NCBI GenBank assembly: GCA_963681505.1
Contig: OY811983.1
Coordinates: 1,663,501-1,727,500, forward strand
Direction: 5' to 3'
From: Eunapius fragilis
Lineage: Eukaryota > Porifera > Demospongiae > Spongillida > Spongillidae
DNA length: 64,000 bases
Shown: piece after piece, positions 43,759 to 55,190 of the stretch
How the letters are laid out: the number at the start of each line of letters is the position of its first letter
How positions within the stretch are numbered: position 1 is the first letter of the stretch
Position numbers and translations under genes: made by a program
The notes under the pieces: model-generated
Database searches by the model: none
Seen by the model: only the letters and a program-made list of their open reading frames with translations
Told to the model about the DNA's origin: nothing

Positions 43759-44247
43759 TACGGTGGCCCTGGAGGTCGCGCGACCAAACATTGCACGACG
43801 CGCGGTTTTTGCGATTGAACAATGTAGCAACGGTCCGATTCTGCGATCAAGCAACGACCCGATTCCGCTATCTAACAACGGTCAATTTTTGAGATCTAAC
43901 AACGGTCAATTATTGGGATCGAACAACGGTCAATTATTGGGATCTAACAACGGTCAATTATTGGGATCTAACAACGGTCAATTATTGGGATCTAACAACG
44001 GTCAATTATTGGGATCTAACAACGGTCTATTTTTGGGACCTAACAACGGTCTATTTTTGAGATCGTACAGCAGTCCATTTCTCCGGCCAAACGTAGTATG
44101 GTATATATAACGTGCATGACGTCATATACACGCAATGGCAAAAAGGTCAGCTAAATAGTATGGATATGGTTCACAGAGACGATCCTGTAGTCAACCGTAA
44201 GTTATGGCGTATCACCATCAGCCAAGAATGTGCATGTATACGCACAT
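43759..44247 (+). repeat. Left terminal inverted repeat of the kinase-bearing element
   Basis: This 489-bp arm matches the complement of 53177-53641 almost base for base. It contains an array of 24-bp units (CAACGGTCAATTATTGGGAT plus CTAA), with five perfect central copies and several diverged ones, so CAACGGTC recurs about a dozen times. The arm is open in one frame because 24 is a multiple of three, but coding is doubtful. Its inner end contains the same integrase-like coding piece as the right arm. Confidence 0.92.
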
Positions 44248-44390
44248 GCATGCAGGACTAATAGTGCGATACTGGAGACAACAGAAGACACTCCTGGCCA
44301 TACTCGCGTATCTGCGGCTAGTTCACCACGTGGCTATTGGGTAAGCGTGTATGATGGAGGCTACAATTAGCGCAGGACCAGTAAACTAGG

Positions 44391-44505
44391 GGAGCATCAC
44401 TATAACTTCAGGTTGACATGGCTCAAGAAAAGGCTCTCTGCACTGGGGCTAAAACGGCGTAAGGTTGTGGAAACACGCCTTACACTAATACATCAGGCTA
44501 TTAAG
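44391..44505 (+). pseudogene. Integrase N-terminal (helix-turn-helix) exon fragment
   Basis: The stretch codes for HHYNFRLTWLKKRL and SALGLKRRKV, which resembles the DNA-binding start of integrase-core transposases found in many invertebrate genomes. A GTCAGT donor follows at 44506. The continuation of this protein is not found on this strand. The catalytic part is on the opposite strand at the right end of the element, so the gene is broken or rearranged. Confidence 0.5.
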
Positions 44506-44565
44506 GTCAGTACTTTGCGAATATACAGAGTGGTGTGACGTGTCCAATTTGAGGAGCCATAGAAT

Positions 44566-45764
44566 GAGTTGCAAACGTCGGCACCACCAGCGCTGCCCCC
44601 GCCGGCGCTCCTGGCGGCACAACCAGCAGCGATACTCCCGCCGCCACCACCACCAGCTGCGCTCCCTCCGGTACCACCGCCGCCTGTGCTCTGTCACGAA
44701 AAATTTGGTCCGGGGGGGAAATCGGTCCGGCCGGACCAATTTTGGCGACCAAAAGTGGTCCGGCCGGACCGAATATGATGCCAAAATTTGTCCGGTTAAT
44801 CCAAAATTGGAACGGGCACATAAATACCTCGTACACGTGGAGATTAGTCTTATTCTATGTGAAAATGGATTATTTAAATGGGAACCTAGTAGAAGAAGCA
44901 TATGAGTACTTGGTAAGAAATGTGTACCCTGTGGGTACAAGCGTATAGGTAGTGTTCGCCACCCGCGAGTACCGATGTCGGTTGTCTTGAATATACAGCA
45001 AACATGAGGGATAATTATATAAACATACCTGATTCCAAGAGATTTCCAGCTCTCACTCTATACTAATACAGCTTCTTTTATTCAAAAACGTGCTCCGTAC
45101 GAAGGAGAACAACAGTTTATCCAATTAAGCGGATTTCTGGTATAGTCGCCAGTGCGGTTGGTCTTTCGCCACGTCAGTATGGTTGCAGTGTTCGCCACCA
45201 CCCTGCATTTCGTTGTTACGTAGCGTATGGTAGGTGGATTGTAACACAACATTGCTTAACCAAGTTAACCGTTTGAAAGGAAATGTCGCGAACACCCCCC
45301 CTCCCCACTATACCTGACGCTACGCTAGCACGCAAGCGTTATATAATTCATCACTCTCCCTTTATTACTTGCATGTGTACGTGGCGCCACGAAAGAAACT
45401 TACAATTATAACGTTGTAAGTAGCCAGCTGAAAAAAAAAAGCTTGGACACACTTTGCATGTATTGTTACTCAGTGATCGAATAGCGGACCGTTTTTGGCA
45501 AGTCAGGACCACTTTTGGCGGACAAATATAGTCCGGTCGGACCGTTTTTGGCGACCAAAAGAGGTCCGGCCGGACCAATTTTGGCGACCAAAAGTGGTCC
45601 GCCGGACCACTTTTAGGTAGGACCACTTTTGCCGTGACAGCTCCCTCCCTGGCCTGCATGGCCACTGCCACCCTGGCTGAATGCAGCATAGCGGGGAGGC
45701 CGGGGACCGGGAGGAGGACGTCCCCGCAGGCGACGAGGGCGCGGGCGAGGACAATTAATAATTA
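44566..45764 (+). pseudogene. Proline-rich exon split by an insertion
   Basis: Codons from 44566 give a Pro/Ala-rich sequence (APPALPPPALLAAQ, then AILPPPPPPAALPPV). It is cut at 44690 by the 950-bp element and resumes at 45641 or 45643, where one frame continues as PPWPAWPLPPWL. Which frame was used before insertion depends on the size of the target duplication. The parent gene is unknown. It could be the tail of the element's transposase or a second cargo gene. Confidence 0.4.
44691..45640. mobile_element. 950-bp inverted-repeat element nested in the kinase-bearing element
   Basis: The ends are CTGTCACG at left and CGTGACAG at right, followed inward by complementary GGTCC-rich blocks. Both ends carry repeated GTCCGGCCGGACCAATTTTG and GGCGACCAAAAGTGGTCC segments, themselves palindromic. 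CT at both flanks may be a 2-bp target duplication. The interior shows no transposase, so it is non-autonomous. Confidence 0.75.
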
Positions 45765-46332
45765 ACACAACTAATTCATTAATTAAATATGTATTATTAT
45801 TGAACAGGAATACAAGATGCAGCAGAATACACTAATCAGAATAAATGCACTAAATAACGAATGCTATTATTAATACATACATACATATCCAGACACACTG
45901 AGACACACTGGCTATGAAAGTGACAATGAGGAACTATCCCCCTCCTGAAGGGAACAGCCACATCTTAAGAGGAGGGCTCGGGCATTGTACAATAATAATA
46001 ATTATTATTAAAGTTATTTGTTATTGCATTAAGAGATAAAAGGGATCGTTCAAATTCTATATGCTCTTCCTACATTTCATTGACTACTATACTGCTATGA
46101 CAGGGTGAAAAAAAAAACTATGAAACAAGTATGTGTTTAGAAGGGGGAGTTGCCGACAGGCAGGTGGCTAGACCTACTTTAACCTTAGACAATGTTTCCC
46201 TTTTAATGCCATATATGCTTTCCGATGCTACATCAATTGTAAGCAGGGGGTAGGTGCACAACCATTCGCCCTTCATCAAAACATTAAACATTTGTTTTTT
46301 TATTTTACTCCCTAAACAAAAACACTTAATGA
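45765..46332. other. Non-coding left-arm spacer of the kinase-bearing element
   Basis: AT-rich sequence with ATAATAATAATTATTATTA near 46000. No coding similarity seen. Confidence 0.5.
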
Positions 46333-46335
46333 TTA

Positions 46336-49300
46336 GGCCAAGCAAACTTGATTATTAGTTTCTCGTCCGCCGGTTTTCAAGAAAGGATGCGGGCGGGCGG
46401 TAATTATTCATTATTCATTATTCTATTTGTTCATTATTTTACATTGGATGCTATAGCTAGAAGTTTTAATAAAGATGTGCACGCGAAATACGATTGCAAA
46501 CGACACATGCACAAAACATTCATGGCCAGTCATCAAACAATAGACTTCCTTCTTTTGATATGCTCCTTCGTTTGGTTGCACACAGAACACATGGGGTAAG
46601 AAGACTCTGAGACTTTTACTAAGTCGGCTGTTGCAGCACAGTGCACACAGATGTCTTCAAATCCAGCTGAATAATATAATGCTTCAATTACATCCCCACA
46701 CCAGTGATCACGAACCACTACACCTGATAAGCTCTCAGGAAGTGAAAGATCATCAAAGGATGCTCCACATGAGTATGAAACATCTTCCAGAATGGATTGC
46801 AAAGTACTACGTTCACCAACTGAGAGTTTTCTTTTTGAGAATACCAAGCGCCACATGTTGCATTCTTCACACTGAATAACTGTTCCAGTGTTGTTTATGT
46901 GCTGCACGCTTGGACTGAAAGAAAGAGGTTTTGCCTTTAATTTTCCCTTCAGCGAAGGGCGGTCTTGCTCAGTAGTGTCACGGGTAAAAACTTGGTCAAA
47001 TGGCAAATAGTGACCATCTTCCTGCATAAGTGGATCAGGAAGAAACCGTAGCTTTTCAAAACTAGATTTGTCCATCCGTAGTGGCTTGCAGATTGTACAC
47101 CTTTCTTGCCCACACTTTTTTATGCAGAATGTATAATGATGCATCTGGCAACAGTGACCAAGGAAGGCTTGAAGCCTTTGTTTGTCATTTGTTTTATCCT
47201 TGGTAGTATCATTATTAGAAAGAGATGGGTCAATCTGTAACAGAATTTCCCAAAAGCTTCCATGTCTCCGTCAGAACATGCTGATCGAACTTCGAAGTGC
47301 TTACCTTTCAACTCCAACCTTTGCATGATGCCTGACAGAAGATCTATAGGCTGCAATATTGACTCTGTAATTTCCTTCTTGTACTGCTCTCCAGTTGAGC
47401 GAACTTGTTTTAGTGAGTTACAATTCCTCAGTGCTTTTTCAGCATCGGTATTCATTTCCTTTCGCATGAGGCCTATGGATTGAAGTCCCAGATTTACCAC
47501 ACTCATGATCCTTTCAACAGGGTTTCGCCAAGACTGGTTTGGTGCTGTCCTTGCTGCACACAACAGATCCAGATTCAAATTAAGAAAAAGTGCTATAAGA
47601 GACAGCTGTGTTGAGACATATGTGAGCCGATGATCTGGTCCACCATCTGTGTACAAAAACATGATGGACTTATGACCTATTTGTCTAGTTAACCATGAGT
47701 TGAGTTCAGCTCCATGTCTCATGGGTGATGAGGGTTGAAAGACTGCATCTTTAAGCATGACACAGACTTGACCATCATACCAAGAACCATCGATGCTTTC
47801 TGGAATATCAATGCGAAAGAGGACACTAGGGATTATGCTAAAGCGAGTAAAGTCATGATCACCAACTTGAAAAACCTCCTGTAGTGAGATAATGACCCTG
47901 CGACCTCTTTCAGCAGCTGCAACTGGGAAATTGGGCTCACCAACTTTGATTCTATGCTTATCATCAAGACAGATAAATAGGCTTTGACTCTTGAAGAGCA
48001 ATGCATATTCTCGCATATAACGGAAGATTGCAGCACAGTAGTATTCATCAATGTGTGTTTTCCTGAATTGCCTCTTTTGGACCATCATCTTAACAGGTAA
48101 ACGTTTGTAGTACTGTTCAGCGGTATTTGTACGTGGATTCTGTGGATAAAATTGCAAGCGCAAAAACTGCTGGGAGGGGATAGGTGTTCCAAAAGATCTC
48201 TGACAGATATAGCACGCGCTAAATAAGTAGCATTGTCATGTCGGCGTTCATGCACAGCAGTACATTCCTGCAGGTAAGATTCACATTTCTTCCAGAAAAC
48301 ATTGTACTTGTCACTTTGTTTCAAATTGAGAGCACGGAGATCAACAAGTAGGTCTGGATCTTCCATTAGAAGTGCTTCTTGCAACCGTTGGTCAATTTCA
48401 GCTTCATGAGTGTTGAGTGATGCACTATGATCACCTATGGATGTGAGTAAAAGTATTAATGAGTAAATGGTATTTACATATACTGTACAAGTACACTGGT
48501 TATGTGTTATATGGGTGTGAGTTCAAATGGTAATCATGTGTGTGTGATCCAGCACTCACCAGTCAATTCCCTGTAGATCTCACGAAGGACATATGGTTTA
48601 GCTGATGAACTGATCAGACCAAATTTATTAATGAATTCTCTTCTCATGCTTCGAGTATGGTACACGGGAAGCTGATCCAAGATTAACCTGATAATTCTTT
48701 GGTTCTCCACCATAGCATTCTCAAAACTGACATGTGGTGGGATTTTCCAAACATAGTGATAGTTTCCAATGTTGGATCCAAAAGATTTAGTGAGCATGAT
48801 GCACCTAATTGGAAGCCCTTTCTCCACTTCCTTAATGTACGTATATCGCTTACGTTTGTCAACTGGGGCAAAGTCATTAACAAAAATGGGCTTGTAACTC
48901 TCTATTTTCTGCAGCTCATCAATAATTCCATTCAGTAGTATGGGATGCATGCTCATCCCTTGTGTTTATAACAGCAAATGACAGATCATCTGAAGCAACT
49001 TCCACTTGAATCTCATTATGCTTTTGCACAGATCTATTCTTCTCCATTAGTTCAAAACCATAACTCTCCAATGCTTCAGCTAAAGCTTCAGTGGCAGTTC
49101 TAATAGTAGCCCACCCTTGTGTTTTCATCCATGGGCACAGAAGAAAGTTTTTGAGGTTACCTGCATGCAATCTCAGTATATCAGCTTTTAAGTTGGAGTG
49201 AGATCTCTTCCGGTGCTTAGTAAGCTCTGGTGTATTGTAGCCAGAGCTTAATACAATGGCAACGACTAGCAAATGTTTTGTGGTGTCCGTCTATGTACCA

Positions 49301-49941
49301 CAGGCATTGCTGGAGTTCCATTAGGAATTTTTGACCATGTGATCTACCACCAGTGCTCCACTCCCATCCCTTATTCTCAAAAAAGGAAACAAGGTCATTG
49401 AACAACTTGTCCTTCTTGTTTCTTTCCTGGATTTTTAATGGTAGCGTTGCCTTATCTACTGTTTTCTGAGAGGCCATCAAAACCTCAAACGCATTGGGAA
49501 GTGTTGAAGAAGCTGAGGCTGATTGAGCATCTTCATGAACGGTCTGTGACACGATGAACTTAACATGCTGACCAAACATTGCGCAAACATCGTCGACGTT
49601 GAGCTGCTCATCCACAATGCTTAACGAATCTTTCGTAAGGCCAATATGAACTTTATCTAGGAATGAATATGACAGTTCTTCATCGATAACAAGACGAGGA
49701 TGAGCTCCGGCGACAATTTTAGAAAACAGTGAAGAAAACGTCAGACCCGTCTCCACTTGAACGACTGTCCATGGTATATGGGTCTTGTAAGCCCCTGAAA
49801 CAGTCAAATTAATACGCGGCATGGCACGTCCTATATTGTCACGTGATGAGTGTATGAATAATAAAATAATGAAATTTGGTGCGTGGCTCCAAAAAATGAT
49901 GCGGGCGGGGACGAGAAACTAATAATCAAGTTTGCTTGGCC
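46336..49941. mobile_element. DNA transposon with a DDE transposase, nested insertion
   Basis: The 3,606-bp element has terminal inverted repeats starting GGCCAAGCAAACTTGATTAT (about 33 bp matched) and a 3-bp TTA duplication (46333-46335 and 49942-49944). It carries one transposase gene on the minus strand. The insertion lies only about 50 bp upstream of the kinase start codon of the surrounding element. TTA duplications are known for PIF/Harbinger elements, but the transposase does not look like that family to me. Confidence 0.88.
46533..49822 (-). CDS. Large DDE-type transposase of an unnamed family
   Basis: About 1,000 residues are spread over five or six exons. N-terminal landmarks are MPRINLTVSGAYKTHIPW (49822) and WYIDGHHKTFASR (about 49260). 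The middle exon starts near 48956 (HPILLNGIIDELQKIE) and another near 48430. The catalytic part (48163-47250) has FICLDDKHRIKVGEP, LYTDGGPDHRLTYVS and NPVERIMSVVNLGLQ, giving a plausible D-D-E triad with the spacing of RNase-H-fold transposases. A Cys-rich C-terminus (CGQERCTICKP, CEECNMW, CSVCNQTKEHIKRRK) suggests zinc binding. Near 47250 the reading appears to shift by one base: the downstream family-like frame (through LGHCCQMHHYTF) is not in phase with the catalytic exon. This copy is therefore probably inactive. Confidence 0.75.
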
Positions 49942-49994
49942 TTATTCTTTTAATTGCCGCATTTTTGCATTCATCATTTGTTACAACTGAACAT

Positions 49995-52212
49995 ATGTCG
50001 AAGGAGGATAGTCGCGATTCCCTATTGCATGATGCATCTTTCCAAGATGATTTGCGTACAGCCCTCAAACGCGCAATCTCAGCGCGACTACCATCTGCAA
50101 CAGCGAACTCCGCGCGGCGCGGACAATCGCCGCCGCCGTCGTCGTCGTCGTCAGGAAAATCTCAACAATCACTGCAAGCCCCGCAGAGAAAACGCAAACC
50201 GGAGGAGAGCTATGAAGACCTACTAAAGTCGTATAACGATCTCACATCCTCGAAACGTTGTGCAAACTTTGCAAGTAAGAAGAAGAAGAAGAAAAATGAA
50301 GTGCCATCAAAAGACGAAGATTCCTGGTTACACAAGTATGCACAATCCATTGGTTCGCGTTTTTTACATGCATCTTGGCTTGTATTCGTGGTGGCTTCCC
50401 TCCTTTTTTCTTTACACTGCTATGCATGTAGATGTCAGTTTGCAGGATGGTAAAAACAAAGAAAGGGGACAGCTATAGGCGCCACGGTGACACTTTCAGG
50501 GTGTCGGGATTCTCACTTAGTGACTCATATGCTGCTGTTATTCGGATAGCTGCAGCTCCACTCCTGGAGAAAAAAGTGAACTATGACATGTGCTGTCTAA
50601 TCGTGTCACAAGCCCGAGTCGTCAACCTTCCTCTGGAAGCTGGTGCGTGGACACTGGGGATGTTTTTACAAGGACTTGGGGGCCTGGTAAAGGCTAAAAG
50701 GCTTATTCTAGGAGTATGCATGCCTGAAAATAGTGTAAGTTACAAACCTTCATGCAGCTCAGTTAGTGCAGTTTTTCTACATTGTACAGGAGTCAACCAA
50801 CAGTGAAACGGCAGGTATTAAATTACTTGGTGTGACATGTATATTATATTTTGACGGCCAAGGAATTAGTCAATATGTATGAGATTTGTACACATTCCTT
50901 TATAGAACTTGAAGATAGCACCAGACGTAAGCCGATGTCACCAATGAGCATTGAAAAAGAAGACCTAAATGCAGATGCCAGAGGTGGTTGCAACTGAGAA
51001 AAATGTAAGCATATATACTTACTACTTTTTGTAAATAGCTGAAGTTAGGAACGGCCTACAACACTTCTCTGCCCCAATCATTGATCTTACACAAAGTAAT
51101 TTGTAATCTCTTTGTGTATACACAAAAATAATTTTTTCACCATGATGTCATTGCTGTTTTAACAAGGAAAAGAAACTACATGCATTCCAGGTACATGTGT
51201 ATGAATAGTGAATGTTTTATGTATATTCTACACTACAATTTAATACAGAGGGGCTGGTGATAGAATTTGAGAACCTTATAATTGGGAACAACATCGGAGT
51301 TGGCAGTTGGGGGGTTGTTTGTAAAGGTGACTATCTTGGCACTGAGGTGGCCATAAAGATGATAACCATACCGGATGAAGGCCTTACGAAGAAAACACTT
51401 ACTGAAGTGTTAATTTTAAGGTAAGTGTGTTCAAGATATTAACATGGCACTGTCAATTACAGTGCAATAACAACAGAGAGTTGCGGCACCCCAACATTAT
51501 CACCCTTATGGGTGCATGCAAGCATGTGAACCAACTGCTGATCATCATGAACTATGTAGATGGTTGCAATCTTGATCAAGCCATTTTTCAAAATACCCTT
51601 GTGGTTAGTATGTTTGCAATGGGAATGTAACCTGGTGTATGAAACTTATTTCCAGATGGAAGCTGTTCAAATCAGCAGCTTAGCAAAGCAAGTCACAAGG
51701 GCACTTGCTTATATGCATAGCCATGACCCTGTTGTGATCCACCAGGACTTAAAACCTGCCAATGTTATGGTAAGGACATGCATGTATTGCCAGAATGTCA
51801 TTCATATTCCATTATACAGGTTTCACGAGAATATCACGCATATGTGTGTGACTTAGGGGTTGCCAAGTTACAGGACCAGTTGGCTTCAATTAAAACATCG
51901 AAAGGGTCTGGTGCAGGGACTGCGCCTTACAAAGCACCAGAGATGTTTATGGATGCCAAACGATCATGGCAAGCAGATGTTTATTCATTAGGATGCCTGC
52001 TCATAGAGTTGACTACAAGAAATCGAGTATGGGGGAACCTAGATGCAGGGCAGATCTGTACCAAGGTGTGTGGCACATATTTGATAGCCCCTCAACAACC
52101 TTCAACGTCTGAAGTTCCCCCAACATACCGTGAACTGTGTGAACTTTGTACACAGGTAAAGCCAGCCGAAAGACCGACAGCTATACAAGTATTAAATCGA
52201 CTGAGCAAGTAA
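49995..52212 (+). CDS. Protein kinase carried by the inverted-repeat element
   Basis: Eight exons join in phase (49995-50335, 50446-50734, 50790-50814, 50906-50983, 51249-51420, 51477-51603, 51656-51769, 51820-52212) to 512 residues with no stop. Residues 1-120 are low-complexity and end in a Lys cluster (nuclear-signal-like). Residues 120-210 form an unrecognised domain (SYRRHGDTFRVSGFSLSD to GGLVKAKRLIL). The kinase domain covers about 252-512: glycine loop IGVGSWGVV, VAIK lysine 281, catalytic loop HQDLKPANV (Asp375, with Gln for the usual Arg), DLG instead of DFG (Asp393), and APYKAPEM. All catalytic residues are present. The closest general type is TKL. It lies between the two arms in plus orientation and reads toward the integrase exons. 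Confidence 0.85.
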
Positions 52213-52447
52213 TCAATATCTGTGCTCAATTGTAATGTGTATCTGGTACATAACCTGTTCATATATAATACATAAAAACAAAAGCTAGGTAAGAGTAAAC
52301 AAACTTGCAATTCACAGCTGTAATTTGATTCTGTGAAAAATCAATAAGGGACAAAATTGAATCTGCCAACACTTGGAACTCCGAAGGATAAAAAGGCCGG
52401 AGATCTACATCAATAGACTTTACCATAAACACGTGTACACATCCATG

Positions 52448-52498
<51 letters not shown>

Positions 52499-52660
52499 AC
52501 AGTCACATACATGTACACGTATAAATGAAAATGGGTGACCACAACAGACAATCAAATGTCAGATCGATTTTAGCACATGCACCATGTAAATATGACACAC
52601 TTATACAACATACACAAACATGTAAACATGCAGCATGCACAGATGCATGCATATATGCTA
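52213..52660. other. Non-coding stretch with CA microsatellite
   Basis: The stretch has a (CA)n run at 52449-52500 and ACATGTACAC-type repeats. The second half of an integrase catalytic domain would be expected here on the minus strand, but I find no sequence resembling it. Confidence 0.55.
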
Positions 52661-53312
52661 TCAAGACCTGTGACTACCTTCCAATTTTACCACTGCATCC
52701 AAAAAGAACTTGACCACCACATTTGGGTCATTGTTAGTGGAAGTTAGTTCCAACCAAAGGATCTTCCGTGAGAACCTGGAGGAATCATATTCATGCGTGT
52801 ACATTAATATTATGAAGCTAGATATGTACAAATATTTACCCATCAATACAAGCATGAATTGGAAAGCCAAAAGGTTTCAACTTGTCATACCCGTCGATGT
52901 GCCAACACCAGTTTGGACCCTGCAATGAAAACAAGTATATAGCGGCATGAATGATGGTGGCAATTCGTTGCTTTGTTCACGTAGGTTCTCCTTGTCAGTC
53001 TTTTTACTCTACGTAGCCGTGAGCCAACAGGATCCATTACAGCAAGTAGCATCATCACAGTTGATCTAGATGAGTGAAGACAGTGATCATGTGTACCCAG
53101 CTCACTTAAATATGCATGGGGCACCTCTTAATGGTGTATCCGTACTTCATTTGAAGCAATCGCCACATCGCCCGGTATGTGCGTATACATGCACATTCTT
53201 GGCTGATGGTGATACGCCATAACTTACGGTTGACTACAGGATCGTCTCTGTGAACCATATCCATACTATTTAGCTGACCTTTTTGCCATTGCGTGTATAT
53301 GACGTCATGCAC
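52661..53312 (-). pseudogene. Truncated integrase-core (rve-like) transposase
   Basis: Exons read leftwards. ACIRTYRAMWRLLQMKYG (about 53200-53140, overlapping the inverted repeat) is followed by LLAVMDPVGSRLRRVKRLTRR (about 53050-52985), GPNWCWHIDGYDKLKPFGF (about 52918-52860) and FSRKILWLELTSTNNDPNV (about 52785-52725). The WHIDGYD motif holds the first catalytic Asp of an integrase-type DDE domain. The second Asp and the Glu were not found downstream, so the catalytic domain is incomplete. The family occurs widely in invertebrate and fish genomes as integrase core domain proteins. Confidence 0.7.
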
Positions 53313-53641
53313 GTTATATATACCATACTACGTTTGGCCGGAGAAATGGACCGCTGTACGATCTCAAAAATAGACCGTTGTTAGGTCCCAAAAATAGACC
53401 GTTGTTAGATCCCAATAATTGACCGTTGTTAGATCCCAATAATTGACCGTTGTTAGATCCCAATAATTGACCGTTGTTCGATCCCAATAATTGACCGTTG
53501 TTAGATCTCAAAAATTGACCGTTGTTAGATAGCGGAATCGGGTCGTTGCTTGATCGCAGAATCGGACCGTTGCTACATTGTTCAATCGCAAAAACCGCGC
53601 GTCGTGCAATGTTTGGTCGCGCGACCTCCAGGGCCACCGTA
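53177..53641 (-). repeat. Right terminal inverted repeat of the kinase-bearing element
   Basis: This 465-bp arm is the complement of the left arm. The 24-bp length difference equals one unit of the internal repeat (four perfect central copies here, five on the left). Its outer edge is followed by a C run at 53642-53656 and then by minisatellite-like sequence. Confidence 0.92.
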
Positions 53642-54007: not shown

Positions 54008-54973
54008 TTATAGTTGGATCTCGTCCGTTGTCGTGTGGGTTCCTCGTTCACCTAACAGTCTACCACCTAAGAACCTTGCAGCCATCCTTCGTATTCGCTT
54101 ATGAACAACGAGAATCGAGGCTAGTGTAGTCGGGTACGACGCGTCATTAAGATGTCTAGAAAGTATTAAGATTACATCAACTGCATCTTGATTTCCGTGT
54201 AAAAGACGGGTCCCCAGAAAGAATATAAGTACTGAAGCCAATCTGAAAGTTGTGTACAAAAGTATATTGAATACATTTATCTTGACAATAGATATTGCCA
54301 ATGACTTTTCCTCATTTAAGGGTTGAATGGTGGACTTTTTTACTTTGTAGCATGTTAGCACGGAGAATACAATCGTCAAAACCAGAGGTAATGTATAAGC
54401 AAGAGGAAGCCACGCTGCTAAGTTGATTGTACCATACAAATCATTCGCATATCTGCAATGAGATGCTCTGATCGTAATGGATTTGAGACTATCAAAAAAT
54501 ATGCACGACATGCCGATGCTGGCTATGATCATGGACAGCAAAGCAAAGTAAACCCATTTAGAAGAGACTGTCCTTCCATGTTTTAAAACCAAGAACTGAA
54601 AGATGGCTGCAACTCCCACGCTCAGTGCAATGATCGAATGAAAACTGAAGTAGAGGAGGGTATAGATATTGTACGTCGGAATTGATGTTCCGCATTCTCC
54701 CATAAAAGGAATGTCCGTAATTGAACTTATGTCCCAAAGAAGCCCATAGCTTGTTACTGCTGCTAGACTAAACAGTGCCATAGCCAAATAAATAATGATT
54801 ATTGGTGACAGTCCGGATGGCTTCTTATCCTTCCAAATGGCCACAATTATTATTATTCCGAGGACTACGGTCGGGACAACGATAAGAATAATGTGAAGAT
54901 ATGTAACGACTGGCAAAAGAACAGAAGCTTGGCCTTGGGTGTAATTGGTGGTTTCATTCTGCGAATCTCTCAT
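54008..54973 (-). CDS. Seven-transmembrane receptor, single exon, family unassigned
   Basis: The frame codes for 321 residues from MRDSQNETTNY (54973); a frame extension to 55054 exists but reads unlike a receptor N-terminus. N-glycosylation sites NET and NYT lie before TM1 (LLPVVTYLHIILIVVPTVVLG). Seven hydrophobic segments can be counted, ending with VDVILILSRHLNDASYPTTL and a basic RIRRMAARF tail. Cys in GECGTS before TM3 and in SHCRYAND could form the usual extracellular disulfide. There is no DRY motif after TM3 (KHGRTVSS) and no NPxxY in TM7. The ligand is unknown. It may belong to a lineage-expanded receptor group. Confidence 0.75.
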   Translation of the reverse strand: MRDSQNETTNYTQGQASVLLPVVTYLHIILIVVPTVVLGIIIIVAIWKDKKPSGLSPIIIIYLAMALFSLAAVTSYGLLWDISSITDIPFMGECGTSIPTYNIYTLLYFSFHSIIALSVGVAAIFQFLVLKHGRTVSSKWVYFALLSMIIASIGMSCIFFDSLKSITIRASHCRYANDLYGTINLAAWLPLAYTLPLVLTIVFSVLTCYKVKKSTIQPLNEEKSLAISIVKINVFNILLYTTFRLASVLIFFLGTRLLHGNQDAVDVILILSRHLNDASYPTTLASILVVHKRIRRMAARFLGGRLLGERGTHTTTDEIQL

Positions 54974-55190
54974 TTTGACTGCAAGAATAGTAAAGAGACA
55001 TTTATTCACACATGAATGATAGTTAATGTGTGTAGCTCTGCAGGGTACCCACAATCAAGGAAAATTAAATCTAGCTATATTATTATAATTACATACACAG
55101 ATACATTAATTACGTTCATGCCAGGCAACCTTTGCAATGGCATGTTGCCTCAGTAACTATGTGATGGCCAATCATTGGTATTATTATTAT

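Follow-up and report, generated by a model that had tools for sequence, protein, structure and literature searches.

Resident kinases have rarely been described in DNA transposons. Fungal TET+ IS3EU elements have TAYGG..CCRTA ends and 6-bp target-site duplications (TSDs), and all TET+ families, according to the available sections of the source, carry an alpha-kinase gene that runs opposite to the transposase (PMC12730594). IS3EU/GingerRoot elements have TA..TA ends, usually 6-bp TSDs, and an integrase-like DDE transposase, and the word kinase is absent from the main text of that account (PMC10045372). Styx of Zymoseptoria and the fungal 'Intons' are said to derive from IS3EU and hold extra coding sequences; the accessible portions of these two papers describe no kinase as part of either (PMC10853768, PMC3520738), and the kinase predicted in the Styx paper belongs to the host genome as a duplicated gene (PMC10853768). 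The TBE transposons of Oxytricha (Tc1/mariner) carry a resident zinc-finger/kinase open reading frame (ORF), 57kD, which in the available part of the report is less conserved than the other TBE ORFs yet has a ratio of nonsynonymous to synonymous substitution rates (dN/dS) well below 1 (PMC4724952). Here, we describe an element that encloses an open eight-exon kinase gene between inverted arms at positions 43759-53641 of a 64,000-nucleotide stretch of contig OY811983.1 from the sponge Eunapius fragilis; this whole stretch is called the window, and coordinates refer to it. The element is very probably a degenerate copy of an IS3EU/GingerRoot-type cut-and-paste transposon whose full-length form combines an rva_4 DDE integrase with a Raf-like (TKL) kinase bearing its own N-terminal domain.

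The sponge element shares with TET+ IS3EU the end type, the 6-bp TSDs, and, at a subset of loci, a kinase opposite the transposase. It differs in that the fungal elements have an alpha-kinase with a TET/JBP gene between, whereas the sponge element has a PF00069 kinase with another N-terminal domain, and in that the integrase and kinase matches lie on the same strand at some sponge loci (PMC12730594, as far as its available sections go). Both the TA..TA termini and the 6-bp duplications of IS3EU/GingerRoot are found here, but the terminal inverted repeats (TIRs) of the sponge element can be 1.8 kb or longer and include exons of the integrase, unlike those in the accessible text of PMC10045372. 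TBEs are likewise DNA transposons with a resident kinase-domain ORF, but they belong to another transposase superfamily, have zinc fingers in the ORF, and live in a ciliate germline context (PMC4724952, available part); we rejected Tc1/mariner membership, the sponge element having 6-7 bp TSDs and an rva_4 integrase. The initial annotation of this stretch knew of no DNA transposon family defined by a resident kinase, a claim overtaken by the two precedents, TET+ IS3EU (PMC12730594) and TBE (PMC4724952), as their available sections describe them. Within the reach of our literature searches, the apparent novelty is a Raf-like kinase with a Pfam-unmatched N-terminal domain in an animal IS3EU element; the literature searched yielded no account of a PF00069 kinase within IS3EU, Repbase entries lying outside that search.

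The element has the following parts in the window.
43759-44247, plus strand: left TIR, 489 bp, beginning TACGGTGGCCCTGGAGGTCGCG and carrying 24-nt tandem repeats
44236-44580, plus strand: integrase 5' exon remnant with stops in the left arm region, from tblastn with Ephydatia muelleri P0009
49995-52212, plus strand: kinase gene with eight exons, an open frame of 495 codons in the example model
50439-50734, plus strand: exon of the conserved N-terminal domain of the kinase, without a Pfam match
52673-53067, minus strand: integrase (rva_4) 5' exons including the first catalytic D, from tblastn and a catalytic-residue check
53177-53641, minus strand: right TIR, 465 bp, with CCGTA at its end and 24-nt tandem repeats

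Aligned with each other, the two arms show one mismatch and 24 gap positions, which equal one 24-bp repeat unit. The termini read TACGG..CCGTA, and the window copy has no target duplication at its own ends. Most of the structure given in the initial annotation stood up: near-identical inverted arms of about 0.47-0.49 kb, two invasions of the element (an ∼950-bp repeat and a 3.6-kb transposon), and a broken integrase, for which tblastn recovered 5' exons and fragments with stops in the window copy and did not find the second-D and E exons. Its 512-codon kinase kept the eight exons and the open frame, and its length fell to 490-495 codons in the models listed. The window copy probably could not move by its own proteins.

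By a restricted enumeration of GT/AG junctions, we obtained 24 eight-exon GT/AG chains that are open from ATG to stop over 49995-52212, with 490-495 codons in the 12 models listed; the example model joins exons 49995-50274, 50439-50734, 50790-50814, 50906-50986, 51249-51420, 51477-51603, 51656-51769, and 51820-52212. The encoded protein has the lysine of VAIK as well as HxD, DxG, and APE, and the last-exon ORF matches Pfam Pkinase (PF00069, E 1.5e-15). Its nearest solved structures by sequence are CTR1 (1.9e-36), TAK1, and B-Raf, a likeness that we take to mark a Raf-like kinase of the TKL group. Script patterns for all four motifs matched at 11 of 17 loci. The six misses stem in part from unretrieved exons or from the limits of the patterns (L043 and L046 read HQDV and DMG), and others reflect damage, as in the lysine exon of L054 and L056. 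The N-terminal domain, ∼95 residues long, is kept across families with 12 invariant columns. A fold model of P0001 (mean pLDDT, the predicted local distance difference test score, 47.6) was poor over the kinase and good only at residues ∼70-170, where block means were mostly 77-93, with one of 58, and the elements ran strand-strand-helix-helix-strand-helix-strand; by eye, this modeled fold looks ubiquitin-like. Matches listed in two structure comparisons of the model concern the kinase part or are kinases, with none for the N-terminal domain. A search with this domain alone returned nothing at E≤10 among 189 candidates, oddly, as P0001, P0003, and P0009 carry it.

To place the kinase in the genome, we compared its positions with those of the integrase. 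Of 26 places whose kinase has at least 40% identity to that of the window, 16 have an integrase of this type within 10 kb in the genome-wide search, which is the even-handed count, and 21 do after adding five loci whose integrase came from tblastn on extracted loci and the window; for kinases below 40% identity, the count was 0 of 50. The zone within 10 kb of integrase matches makes up 0.54% of the genome. The kinase set comprised 76 places down to ∼61 bits among the matches listed, with other exons of the same locus removed and two matches below 40% identity at ∼61.5 bits left out (C15:5571973 and C3:7071099). The integrase set comprised 95 among the matches listed, mostly of higher identity; matches of 33-44%, mostly intronless, were left out or listed separately. 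The rva_4 integrases are very abundant genome-wide (475 candidates, the best 150 of 475 scored), many of them intronless, and seven matches have identical scores and an open frame of 521 aa. Around the 31 intronless matches used, no kinase fell within 10 kb (0 of 26 similar, 0 of 50 less similar), and at one such locus, L063, with a 521-aa ORF, no recognizable kinase-like ORF was seen among ORFs of at least 80 aa in 4 kb. We rejected an alpha-kinase as the kinase of IS3EU in this genome: the element kinase is PF00069, and none of seven alpha-kinase places lies within 10 kb of the listed integrase or intronless rva_4 matches, and inspection by eye gave the same result for the rva_4 matches listed in the wider genome search.

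Arm sequence has 48 matches in the 219-Mb genome (24 contigs), and 20 stretches, making up 18 elements, were compared beside the window. The end motif occurs 464 times at up to two mismatches versus 0 for the reversed control. Because of these two counts, an assembly artefact, which the initial annotation had named as a possible source of the inverted repeat, is unlikely. Both ends were readable in 13 arm-bearing elements; nine of these have perfect flanking duplications, 6 bp long in seven and 7 bp in two, and mismatched flank pairs used as a control gave 0 of 156; among further loci, duplications were found at 5 of 6, plus L060. In two sister copies, L009 and L012, the kinase of the window element recurs (last exon 95% identical) within the same pair of arms, as the initial annotation had proposed looking for, and diverged kinases lie between like ends elsewhere. 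L009 spans 8187 bp with 1839-bp TIRs that have one mismatch and the TSD TGGTTC; L012 is without a target duplication. Both ends were located for eight kinase-bearing elements, of which five have a duplication (L009, L060, C2, C6, and C11, where the one of two possible right ends that yields a duplication was counted) and three do not (the window, L012/L013, and C7). TACGG..CCGTA bounds the window family and the L060, C2, C6, C7, and C11 copies. L060, with TSD CATATG, shares with L009 little beyond the first 22 bp of the ends, which fit transposase-binding ends. TIR length varies between copies (399 bp in L060, 1839 bp in L009, ∼2.4 kb or more in L012), and the TIRs include coding exons, a pattern suggesting that the arms grew through gene conversion.

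The kinases of both-end elements fall into three diverged families (the window type; L060 with C2, C7, and C11; C6), the L060 kinase being ∼52% identical to that of L009. Near-identical locus sets exist in several families, for instance four loci 99.6-100% identical over 3.4 kb. In a phylogenetic tree, 19 element kinases lie on one side of a branch (99/96), their monophyly being relative to outgroups that consisted of 20 matches of one word-based search and one host kinase; the tree carries a flag for long branches, and several of its element sequences are incomplete. L060 groups with E. muelleri P0003 and relatives, and L032 with P0001 (91/90). For both kinase and integrase, the nearest relatives found are in this freshwater sponge.

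Some E. muelleri gene models join this kinase type with Pfam rva_4, an integrase core, and we used them as tblastn queries to find the integrase exons of the element. The exons match E. muelleri proteins carrying Pfam rva_4, and the comparison with IS3/IS481-like DDE enzymes is drawn from Pfam. The integrase of the element begins inside the arm. In L009 and L012, it is rich in introns and on the strand opposite the kinase; the first-D exon lies within the long TIR and is hence present twice, and the second-D and E exons are placed between the TIR and the kinase; L012 has them on either side, one of these with a stop. Exons with D, D, and E were seen in L009, L012, L032, L042, and L059, all with kinase and integrase on opposite strands, and hit strands place the two on the same strand at the C2, C5, and C7 loci. 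Searches with the integrase part from E. muelleri gave 10 matches, eight of which list both kinase and rva_4, and the joined models agree with the same-strand families. A genuine fusion of integrase and kinase in one protein was rejected: in L060, an in-frame stop precedes the kinase ATG by two codons, and two adjacent genes are therefore more likely on the reading of this junction. One E. muelleri model, P0006, joins integrase, this kinase type, and a DNA photolyase domain, probably a gene-prediction fusion.

For selection on the kinase, pairs among the window, L009, and L012 have 4, 5, and 1 synonymous and 15, 17, and 7 nonsynonymous differences, respectively, over ∼450 codons, and for the kinase domain alone two window comparisons gave dN/dS of 0.73 and 0.81. 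In other families, nine close pairs gave ratios from 0 to 1.68. Comparisons across families had dN of 0.25-0.52, with dS saturated in most (13 of 16 for L009); the five computable ratios are 0.11-0.22, which are rough, with dS ∼2 or more and three of the five pairs sharing one family. This pattern fits upkeep of the kinase through successive transposition and drift after insertion. Change among the three copies is near-neutral, so the open frame in the window can be explained by recent insertion alone, and the window copy, with arms that differ by one mismatch and one repeat unit, may be recent. The earlier suggestion that the kinase was selected for, as cargo or after host capture, thus divides on the proposed dN/dS comparison: constraint is seen between families, near-neutral change among the three copies, and host capture is unsupported.

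Several observations weigh against a resident kinase in an IS3EU element. Most arm-bearing elements are without it: 16 of the 18 show no kinase match, and arms elsewhere without the kinase, which the initial annotation took, jointly with a conserved syntenic kinase position, as counting against its reading, do occur, only L009 and L012 matching. Eight of the 13 both-end elements are 3.0-3.7 kb without the kinase segment, as internally deleted derivatives would be; the longer L019, L023, L027, and L028 are likewise without it. Stops or damaged exons mark several kinase copies (e.g., L041, L043, L046, L048, L054, and L056), with stops in exons, or mis-retrieved stretches, of L041, L043, L045, L046, L048, and L054. 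Within the window family, dN/dS is near 1 or above, on small counts. The N-terminal domain had no Pfam match at five loci (E≤10). No end motif was found in the ∼9-kb stretches of L059, L061, and L062, where the kinase-integrase tie is one of closeness only. The locus-level tblastn behind the count of 21 covered the similar kinases and, among the other 50, L057, with none there. The IS3EU assignment itself is a sequence-based one, from ends, TSDs, and Pfam rva_4.

With these points counted, the kinase is, on the genomic evidence, a resident part that travels with the element and not a host-captured gene. It is unlikely, if conceivable, that it is a passenger, a gene captured anciently that has no role in transposition and perhaps acts on the host. 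Such a passenger would accord with the many copies that spread without it, with dN/dS near 1 within the family, and with its faster divergence between families (identity ∼0.40-0.56 for the kinase versus 0.53-0.78 for the integrase in most pairs; the co-divergence of the two, r 0.46, was judged against the first 5000 permutations in sequence, which are non-random, and is not relied on). It accords poorly with catalytic residues kept in families ∼50% identical, relatives in a second genome, near-identical copies in several families, and the rough between-family dN/dS of 0.11-0.22 in five computable pairs. Capture by the host at this locus, for a host function, would account for a frame that stays open while the integrase is broken and the element twice invaded, but we consider it very improbable: the nearly identical arms mean that the copy may be recent, the exons compared in L009 and L012 are likewise free of stops, and change against these two copies is near-neutral, on small counts. 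A host-domesticated, single-locus kinase under purifying selection was accordingly rejected, with sister copies elsewhere and near-neutral change. Least credible of all is a kinase that is part of a different mobile element inserted between the arms. Two unrelated insertions are indeed present in the window element, but at several loci kinase and integrase are enclosed by one pair of ends flanked by target duplications, and the nested 3.6-kb transposon is absent from L009, which has the kinase; the kinase as a part of that transposon was rejected on this ground.

In the resident-kinase reading, the intron-containing integrase would cleave at the TACGG..CCGTA ends and leave 6-7 bp target duplications on insertion. 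The kinase would serve the element; its most likely substrate would be the integrase or a host nuclear factor, with repair, cell-cycle, or silencing factors as candidates, and phosphorylation might time or permit transposition. By analogy, the recurrence of kinases in fungal and sponge IS3EU and in TBEs favors a role in transposition over chance cargo. We put forward tentatively, giving it slightly less than even weight, that IS3EU took up different kinases at least twice, an alpha-kinase on the fungal side and a TKL kinase on the sponge side, with phosphorylation controlling or licensing transposition, and that the sponge lineage is a long-lived two-protein transposon whose kinase has a Pfam-unmatched N-terminal domain. 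Different kinases in one transposase superfamily across two kingdoms raise the question of whether the kinase acts on the transposase or on the host. As a warning, some sponge kinase gene models are transposon genes.

Two insertions interrupt the window element.
44691-45640, no strand assigned: inserted ∼950-bp repeat with palindromic GTCCGG motifs, from a genome repeat search
46336-49941, minus strand: nested separate transposon, 3.6 kb, with a 37-bp TIR and the TSD TTA from junction letters
47120-48235, minus strand: transposase-like ORF of the nested transposon, 371 aa

The ∼950-bp repeat holds GTCCGGCCGGACC palindromes and has 909 genome candidates, the best 40 of 909 scored. The TIR of the nested transposon begins GGCCAAGCAAACTTG, and its transposase-like ORF, which bears TDGGPDH, had no Pfam match. 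The ORFs of 46.5-49.9 kb were rejected as the element's own integrase, since they sit in this 3.6-kb insertion with its own TIRs. ORFs related to those of the nested transposon occur at many other genome sites, some with longer open frames. Lastly, beyond the right arm (54008-55054, minus strand), a 348-aa open frame, with no Pfam match above the cut-off, looks by eye like a multi-pass membrane protein.

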